Shown piece by piece: positions 40,802 through 41,435 of a stretch of 64,000 nt of DNA. How positions within the stretch are numbered: position 1 is the stretch's first letter; each line of letters opens with the position of its first letter. The notes under the pieces are model-generated. The model saw only the letters and a list, made by a program, of their open reading frames with translations. It had not been told where the DNA came from and ran no database searches. Position numbers and translations under genes: made by a program. Origin of the DNA: Rhodococcus qingshengii (GTDB lineage Bacteria; Actinomycetota; Actinomycetes; Mycobacteriales; Mycobacteriaceae); assembly GCF_021025955.1 (NCBI RefSeq), contig NZ_JAJNCL010000003.1:248001-312000 (forward strand). The letters run 5' to 3'.

Positions 40802-40904
40802 CGCCTGTCCACGCTACCGGCGTCCACCGACACGGTCGTCAGTGCGTCCACCTGCTGGTAGAGGCACTTGGATTCCTTGTGTCGAACATGGCAAACTGGA
40901 CGCT

Positions 40905-40994
40905 ATGTTCAGCATTTCCGTTCGCGACAACGCGGCCGACCCTGTCGGTCCGCTGTGGCGTTACTTTACGTGCCCCGGACTTCGGTGCACGTGA
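40905..40994 (+). CDS. 29-residue aromatic leader peptide of chorismate mutase
   Basis: An ORF of 29 codons, peptide MFSISVRDNAADPVGPLWRY then FTCPGLRCT. It carries Phe2 and a cluster Trp18-Arg-Tyr20-Phe21, with Cys at 23 and 28. Aromatic codons in a short leader directly before a gene of aromatic amino acid synthesis are the hallmark of ribosome-mediated attenuation. It is followed by hairpins and an intrinsic terminator at 41011-41043, then chorismate mutase. I see no strong ribosome-binding site before the ATG (GCAAACTGGACGCT), so translation could be leaderless or weak. Confidence 0.6.
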   Translation: MFSISVRDNAADPVGPLWRYFTCPGLRCT

Positions 40995-41044
40995 TCTGAA
41001 CAGCTCACCCGCCCCTGGTCCGAATCGGATCCGGGGCATTTTCG
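40968..41044 (+). promoter_or_regulatory. Putative transcription attenuator upstream of chorismate mutase
   Basis: Visible structures: hairpin A pairs ACGTGC (40968-40973) with GCACGT (40987-40992), with inner CCG/CGG. Hairpin B is GTGA-CTG/CAG-TCAC (40991-41008). The terminator pairs GCCCC (41011-41015) with GGGGC (41033-41037), with a GGTCCGA/TCGGATCC inner stem, then ATTTT. TGCCCCGGA (40971-40979) is perfectly complementary to TCCGGGGCA (41030-41038), the terminator's right arm, giving a possible antiterminator. Hairpin A and the antiterminator share a strand, and the leader peptide codons lie just upstream. Confidence 0.6.
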
Positions 41045-41117
41045 TCAGTGTGCCTGGATCGGTAACGACCCGAGCCGAGACCACGATCCACGCAGTAGGA
41101 AGAGGAGACGAATAGCA

Positions 41118-41435
41118 ATGAGCACCCAGGCTGCAGCACCCAATGGAAATACTGTAAATACTGCTCCGACAGACGTCGAGATCCCCCAGAGTGAGGCGGA
41201 GATCGACGAACTACGGAAAGAGATCGACCGCCTCGACGCCGAGATCCTCGCGGCCATCAAACGCCGCTCCGAGGTCTCCCAGATCATCGGCCGTACCCGG
41301 ATGGCATCGGGTGGTCCGCGTCTGGTGCACAGCCGGGAGATGAAGGTCCTCGAACGGTTCAACGAGCTCGGCCAGGAAGGCCACACCCTCGCGATGCTGC
41401 TCCTGCGTCTGGGCCGCGGACGCCTGGGCCACTAG
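41118..41435 (+). CDS. Chorismate mutase (AroQ delta type)
   Basis: A 105-residue intracellular chorismate mutase that converts chorismate to prephenate for Phe/Tyr synthesis. After a disordered head it reads SEAEIDELRKEIDRLDAEIL, then AAIKRRSEVSQIIGRTRMAS, with catalytic Arg/Lys positions of AroQ, and ends MLLLRLGRGRLGH. The last residues RLGRGRLGH are the tail that inserts into DAHP synthase in M. tuberculosis Rv0948c and raises activity; such a partner is likely here though not in the window. The putative attenuator precedes it. A terminator (41452-41499) follows, shared with gabD. Confidence 0.94.
   Translation: MSTQAAAPNGNTVNTAPTDVEIPQSEAEIDELRKEIDRLDAEILAAIKRRSEVSQIIGRTRMASGGPRLVHSREMKVLERFNELGQEGHTLAMLLLRLGRGRLGH

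Follow-up and report, generated by a model that had tools for sequence, protein, structure and literature searches.

A candidate Phe/Tyr leader-peptide attenuator in front of the chorismate mutase gene csm in Rhodococcus and other actinobacteria

Results

A short aromatic ORF precedes csm

In the window, that is, the whole 64,000-nt stretch of DNA analysed, the chorismate mutase gene csm is preceded by a 29-codon open reading frame (ORF) and by four RNA strands, partly within that ORF, with alternative predicted pairings. The features are listed here in order, with the evidence for each; strands 1 to 4 denote the successive pairing segments.

40868..40897, + strand: promoter-like pair TTGGAT, 18 nt, CAAACT (consensus match only)
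40905..40994, + strand: leader peptide ORF, 29 codons and stop (sequence, homologous leaders in relatives; no space for a Shine-Dalgarno sequence)
40959..40967, + strand: CGT-TAC-TTT (Arg-Tyr-Phe), with the putative Tyr/Phe sensor codons at 40962-40967 (sequence, alignment with RFFYGYR leaders, codon counts)
40966..40994, + strand: hairpin P1 (strands 1:2), 40966-40977 with 40983-40994, single mismatch 40974/40986 (fold, covariation)
40977..41021, + strand: predicted antiterminator (strands 2:3), 40977-40994 with 41005-41021, internal mismatches (masked fold, pair counts)
41011..41042, + strand: terminator-like hairpin (strands 3:4), 41011-41022 with 41026-41037, then ATTTT (folding, alignment)
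41103..41107, + strand: Shine-Dalgarno-like AGGAG of csm (sequence)
41118..41435, + strand: csm, chorismate mutase type II, 105 aa (Pfam CM_2, 43.9 bits; cut-off 27)

The Pfam match confirms the gene assignment of the initial annotation, which had been made from the sequence alone. The neighbours of csm encode a UvrD helicase (opposite strand), an aldehyde dehydrogenase and a phosphoglucose isomerase. The leader translates to MFSISVRDNAADPVGPLWRYFTCPGLRCT and would place codons for Phe and Tyr, the end products of the pathway that it is predicted to regulate, in a short ORF directly before csm.

The leader ATG starts 7 nt 3' of the -10-like hexamer CAAACT, which lies within a conserved block, TGGCAAACT. 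If the transcript starts at the ATG, the leader would be leaderless, i.e. translated without a 5' untranslated region. A scan tool reported no sigma-70 site at 40868..40897. Among 97 chosen loci aligned to a covariance model of the element (R1), 89 carry a -10-type box 5-8 nt 5' of the leader start codon, at a distance of 6 or 7 nt in 87. A weak hairpin at 40896-40912, which overlaps the leader start codon and was flagged by a terminator scan, is probably a chance occurrence.

The ORF is conserved across relatives, as the initial annotation had demanded of a genuine leader. The relatives' peptides before csm end in RFFYGYRxPVPV; the RFFYGYR tail is conserved in named Rhodococcus and Mycolicibacterium and reads RFPSGYR in Prescottella. 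Examples are MFSPPSRPLWRFFYGYRPPVPVN (R. opacus group), VFSADQRLAWRFFYGYRTPVPVA (R. triatomae), VLSPQRRFFYGYRSAVPVGI (Mycolicibacterium rhodesiae) and a leader ending in HWRFPSGYRPMVPAA (Prescottella), each followed by a stop codon. In 96 of the 97 chosen loci csm lies immediately 3' of the element, and for the single miss just 260 nt had been fetched. Of the 89 leaders read, 75 have their stop codon at model position 42, eight at 36, five at 45 and one at 37; the eight leaders stopping at 36 are those of the window, L001, L003, L004, L088 and L090, plus L096 and L268, which are of other kinds. The stop-position pattern yielded no leader at 8 of the 97 loci, and L091 was read there in the wrong frame.

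Tryptophan had been counted as part of the sensor. W is found in Rhodococcus leaders but is missing from many mycobacterial ones (QRRFFYGYR) and from the core of the class leaders, and a Trp (trpL) attenuator, which would have conserved Trp codons, was rejected as a candidate on the same absence in many mycobacterial and other leaders.

Strands 1 to 4 are predicted to form alternative hairpins

Covariation was assessed in an alignment of 33 sequences out of 41 extracted. P1 is paired in 97.5% of cells in these relatives (slid versions, at most 46.6%), with 12 double-change cells against 1.5 in shuffles. Four of its pairs change on both sides: 13:39, 14:38 (AU/GC/UA), 16:36 and 17:35 (GC/UA/AU). 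The 2:3 pairing holds in 84.2% of cells (slid versions, at most 53.8%) and has 16 double-change cells against 6.0 in shuffles, although the number of 2:3 pairs with double changes is no higher than in shuffles (2 vs 2.0; 434/500). The terminator 3:4 is paired in 89.6% of cells; its covariation taken alone is weak (3 cells vs 1.5), and a version slid by -1 scores higher (0.115 vs 0.082). For P1 and the terminator together, 12 pairs and 47 cells are double-changed in the 97-row set, against 5.0 and 8.9 in shuffles, in an alignment that was fitted to the model and leans to the structure. Strands 1:2, 2:3 and 3:4 are alternative pairings with the sensor codons at strand 1, and the support for 2:3 is weaker than that for 1:2.

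The same 33 sequences were folded with ViennaRNA, with and without masking of strands. When the RNA ended before strand 4 and nothing was masked, P1 formed in 30 of 33 sequences; L001, L049 and L050 favoured 2:3, L001 being R. erythropolis and nearly identical to the window. Given this unmasked preference for 2:3 in three relatives, the off state may not be tight. With strand 1 masked and the RNA again ending before strand 4, 2:3 folded in all 33 sequences (10-15 pairs), and masking past the stop codon gave 3:4 in all 33. With strand 1 masked and strand 4 present, the terminator was the minimum-energy fold in the window and in L019. Because the full-length masked fold still gives the terminator, 2:3 could win only kinetically, before strand 4 is made.

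The initial annotation had read an aromatic leader peptide with mutually exclusive hairpins as an attenuator of csm, and conservation, covariation and predicted folds support this reading. Of the two small hairpins that it described, the first is P1 and is conserved, and the second (GTGA..CT..AG..TCAC) corresponds to the tip of the antiterminator predicted for 2:3.

A simple terminator scan missed 3:4 because of its short U-run, listing two sites elsewhere instead. In the window the hairpin is followed by just ATTTT, and mycobacteria have a poor U-run (CTCGTCTCTTG); some lineages have a good one, such as the R. opacus group with CTTTTTTCG. The 3:4 hairpin ends about 65 nt 5' of the csm Shine-Dalgarno sequence. 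A possible second hairpin, TGGATCG/CGATCCA (window 41055-41090), lies between the two. Of the 80 named csm loci (best matches), 33 contain the motif GATCGGnAACG, among them Nocardia loci with an eroded leader.

Rare codons are enriched in the aromatic cluster

TTT is a rare Phe codon in the window, accounting for 4 of 77 Phe codons in four of its genes. In the aromatic cluster of 48 class leaders (see below), TTT makes up 48 of 73 Phe codons and TAT 39 of 52 Tyr codons; the longest ORFs of those among these loci that exceed 2.5 kb, which may not always be true genes, have TTT at 7 of 137 and TAT at 7 of 90. Within csm itself the counts are 0 TTT of 2 Phe and 0 TAT of 28 Tyr, too few to serve as background. 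The enrichment of rare TTT and TAT suggests that stalling is tuned by codon choice. The leaders of the window's family use TTT for 39 of 56 Phe codons and TAC for 53 of 54 Tyr codons, and TAC is the choice that P1 pairing would favour.

Spread of the element in the family and in the class

At E<=1e-10, R1 matched 67 of 301 genomes of the family: 25/28 in the window's genus, 24/28 in g29, 12/14 in g10, 3/6 in g22, 2/2 in g18 and 1/1 in g12. No match at this threshold was found in the other 25 genera, and genus g3 gave no strong match among the family genomes. At E<=1e-6 the model matched 127 of 148 genomes of g29, a genus recognised as mycobacterial because the core of its genome G133 (L140) is identical to that of named M. 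rhodesiae. On conservation grounds, the element is far beyond chance. In the class, 11 of 197 genomes matched at E<=1e-5. One of these from another family, G509, has the leader VTSAATRFFYGYRPPVAVAAV, then a hairpin, a terminator and csm, which adjoins what we take, by eye, to be guaA/guaB-like genes. A class match in G569 (E 6e-6) and most family matches at E>1e-6 are taken as chance terminators. A strict codon pattern, CGNTTYTTYTAYGGNTAYCGN, found just 37 of 301 genomes (reversed control, 0) and did not match the window's own genome, since the motif varies. The class matches L294, L295 and L312 of a shorter pattern were set aside as not adjacent to csm.

In the class, csm itself was also searched for by profile (E<=1e-12), giving csm in 66 of 226 genomes, to which G658 was added. 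A leader was defined as an ORF of 8-45 codons that starts 5-7 nt after a -10-like box and contains a seven-residue stretch with two or more aromatic residues. Such a leader precedes csm at 44 of the 48 loci outside the family with 450 nt upstream; the reverse strand gave 1, and 30 shuffle rounds a mean of 0.4 (maximum 2). In three of the four misses (L366, L367, L369) the same tail, FYGGRVRSPL, belongs to a longer ORF; the fourth (L316) reads MAMVRFYPDRPPVLDAA with a poorer box. Class leaders include FLFTYGNRPAGCHGRAA (genus g49), PPFYGDRARSPLHR (f18), KFFYGNRTPAPVVV (f41), FFYYGTGSPAAVGRA (f2), RFFYALTGVRSGLGC (f14) and MLTHPTFLFTYGNRPAGCHGRAA (L351), all ending at a stop codon. Second csm or csm-like copies in some class genomes (L382-L385) have no aromatic leader; another second copy, L381, is cut by a contig end.

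A predicted hairpin starts at most 4 nt from the start of the last aromatic codon in all 44 class loci folded, with modest z-scores for P1 (mean -1.65; below -1.5 in 21 of 44). At least eight 2:3 pairs are possible at 39 of 48 class loci, and at least four of them lie in the 5' arm of the terminator at 33 of 48, counts that have no shuffle control. At least four T in the 8 nt after the hairpin occur at 17 of 48. Class terminators were located by a length-weighted search, as the first finder picked wrong hairpins in many rows; the search is still unsure for f18, in which the hairpin selected is often one that no 2:3 pair extends into.

Re-framing, erosion and loss of the leader

The clade of the window (R. 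erythropolis, Rhodococcus sp. P-2, R. globerulus and others) has leaders reading WRYFTCPG, GRYFTCAG or WHYFTSAG at the aromatic core. Aligned with leaders of the R. opacus type, they lack one base in the interval from TGG to the end of P1, which shifts the register after Arg to TAC TTT ACG TGC instead of TTT TTT TAC GGG. The R. erythropolis group carries a re-framed leader, with WRYF for WRFFYGYR and a putative TAC-TTT sensor for FFYGY, and retains P1 through compensating changes.

Of the 80 named csm loci, which are the best matches and include 48 from Nocardia, 18 have a clear RFFYGYR, RFPSGYR or RYF/HYF leader. The Nocardia loci retain box and ORF in 45 of 48 cases; the last 16 residues of these ORFs contain no aromatic residue in 21, one in 10, two in 11 and three in 3. 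A leaderless-looking ORF without an aromatic cluster is also found at nine other Rhodococcus-type loci (L030, L057, L065, L068, L069, L071, L073, L076, L077). In R. oryzae and R. maanshanensis (L014, L029), and less clearly in R. tukisamuensis (L006), the -10-like box almost abuts the csm Shine-Dalgarno sequence, as if the attenuator had been deleted as a block. An upstream scan of 30 genomes from the family's genera found two with the RFFYGYR leader; a third, L185, came from the model.

Further loci illustrate other outcomes. At L130, a mycobacterial locus, the terminator is deleted with peptide and P1 intact, which makes it a natural test of csm without attenuation. Three Nocardia loci (L013, L027, L032) share a conserved stretch around CAGGTCTGTTTCACGGTGAAAGAACCGG at the terminator's expected place, which may be another regulatory hairpin. 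L260 and L269, from two genomes with single contigs of 3.27 Mb, have kept an aromatic leader before csm, which can therefore be retained in small mycobacterial genomes.

Discussion

Proposed mechanism

We propose that the element is, very probably, a ribosome-mediated (leader-peptide) transcription attenuator of csm that senses the charging of tRNA-Phe and tRNA-Tyr. Transcription would start at or beside the leader start codon, and the ribosome would load without a Shine-Dalgarno sequence. If Phe and Tyr are plentiful, the ribosome would reach the stop codon at the end of P1 and cover strand 2, leaving 3:4 to form the terminator. If Phe or Tyr is short, the ribosome would stall on the aromatic codons that immediately precede P1 or lie at its start. 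The leading edge of a ribosome lies about 15 nt from its P site. With the last Phe or Tyr codon before P1 in the A site, it would cover about 12 nt of strand 1, and strand 2 could then pair with strand 3 before strand 4 is made. Once 2:3 has formed, no terminator would arise and csm would be transcribed. If no ribosome loads, P1 would sequester strand 2 and termination would be the default.

Alternative explanations

The initial annotation had placed the antiterminator elsewhere, pairing TGCCCCGGA (40971-40979) with TCCGGGGCA (41030-41038), i.e. strands 1 and 4. In this case, stalling on Tyr or Phe would favour termination, and the annotation had itself worried that the logic might be reversed. 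The two segments are indeed exact 9-nt complements, and 1:4 pairs in 75.8% of cells in the 33 relatives (slid versions, at most 56.2%). Among 1000 dinucleotide shuffles of the 140-nt stretch, 3.7% contain a complement of at least 9 nt; on its own the match is just mildly unusual, and it follows from strand 1 approximating the complement of 2, 2 that of 3 and 3 that of 4. The specific pairing is not conserved in the 33 relatives: column pair 20:93 is broken in 31 of them and 25:88 in 25, and none of the 33 full-length minimum-energy folds uses 1:4. In addition, P1 takes up strand 1 before strand 4 exists. We therefore regard a 1:4 antiterminator as extremely improbable. The worry over reversed logic falls with it, as the strand covered by the stalled ribosome would be strand 1, which frees strand 2, the antiterminator strand. 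Almost as doubtful is an arrest peptide, in which the nascent RFFYGYR chain would stall the ribosome on a ligand instead of by codon starvation. The non-aromatic G and R are conserved too, as expected of such a peptide, but the G-x-R codons are also the 5' strand of P1, which accounts for their conservation. G-x-R changes elsewhere (FYPDR, FFYALTG, and TCPG in the window), and leader length varies from 18 to 35 codons.

A different question is whether the hairpins end transcription by themselves. The leader ORF might control csm translation or mRNA stability instead, or termination might depend on Rho. The weak U-runs of mycobacteria and most class loci fit such a scheme, as does the separate hairpin nearer the csm Shine-Dalgarno sequence. 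However, the distance of 3:4 from that sequence, its prediction in all 33 relatives folded and the good U-run of lineages such as the R. opacus group argue against it, and we judge a mechanism without intrinsic termination to be improbable. It is also unlikely, if slightly less so, that the leader of the window is a decaying remnant and the switch defunct in the R. erythropolis group after the frame change. FFYGYR has been lost there, P1 has the mismatch 40974/40986, L001 folds 2:3 by default, and Nocardia provides a clear case of erosion. Against this, the clade keeps P1 by compensating changes (GGG:CCC to GTG:CAC, GAG:CTC), its Tyr-Phe codons stand at about the same distance from P1, and the window, L001, L003, L004, L088 and L090 retain the ORF, the -10 box and the place of the stop codon.

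Taken together, these observations favour the attenuator sensing Phe and Tyr, and its distribution points to an old origin. We consider it likely that, in a large part of the class Actinomycetia, Phe/Tyr control was ancestrally exerted at csm, through a leaderless, rare-codon-tuned aromatic attenuator (core F-Y-G-x-R with P1 directly after it) in at least 10 families of the genome set (f1, f2, f12, f14, f18, f19, f22, f32, f36, f41). By the same reading, erosion or loss of the attenuator would have followed in Nocardia and in further genera of the same family as the window. Within the R. erythropolis group, the frame would have moved by one base and the switch been kept by compensating changes, with the sensor re-made in a fixed RNA frame. 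If the attenuator works as proposed, the Phe/Tyr branch point in Rhodococcus, mycobacteria and several actinobacterial families is under transcriptional control by tRNA charging, which would offer a direct handle for aromatic-compound engineering. The intact, re-framed, eroded and deleted forms would then provide a natural series for the study of attenuator evolution.

Comparison with known systems

The Escherichia coli pheL leader has a Shine-Dalgarno sequence, unlike the leaderless-looking leader of the window; the two are compared here in layout, not in sequence relation. Both involve an aromatic leader peptide, and in pheL-pheA ribosome-mediated attenuation likewise acts on a gene with chorismate mutase activity (PMC11802643). 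E. coli pheA, however, encodes a fused chorismate mutase-prephenate dehydratase and responds to Phe-charged tRNA (PMC11802643), whereas the window has a free-standing csm behind Phe and Tyr codons. In Corynebacterium glutamicum, the AroR leader of aroF is, like ours, actinobacterial; it contains Phe-Tyr-Phe and is reported to respond to Phe limitation (PMC11802643, PMC4046766). AroR controls DAHP synthase (aroF), and the element of the window precedes csm; the AroR attenuator of aroF was ruled out as an identity for it, the gene downstream being CM_2 and not aroF. For C. glutamicum csm, the passage concerned in PMC11802643 mentions enzyme inhibition alone. The window had no gathering-level match to an Rfam family, the T-box riboswitch included.

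According to a 2005 survey of actinobacterial amino-acid genes, neither Phe nor Tyr operons were preceded by a conserved regulatory RNA structure (PMC1262725). Among the matches listed in open-licence PubMed Central, judged by titles and starts of abstracts, none described a csm leader in actinobacteria. Two other sets of actinobacterial leaders are similar in design. The attenuators of Streptomyces lividans (leu, trp, ala, ilv, met, thr) likewise combine leaderless leader peptides with hairpins; the eight leader peptides reported include none for Phe or Tyr, and the word 'chorismate' is absent from the main text (PMC8079986). In the family of the window itself, the cysteine-rich leaderless uORFs of mycobacteria are likewise short leaderless ORFs proposed as attenuators, but with cysteine codons and in front of other genes, in a paper whose main text does not contain 'chorismate' (PMC4633059). 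The csm element belongs to a known kind of regulator, and it is the target, the leaderless-looking start, the rare codons and the class-wide spread that make it worth reporting.
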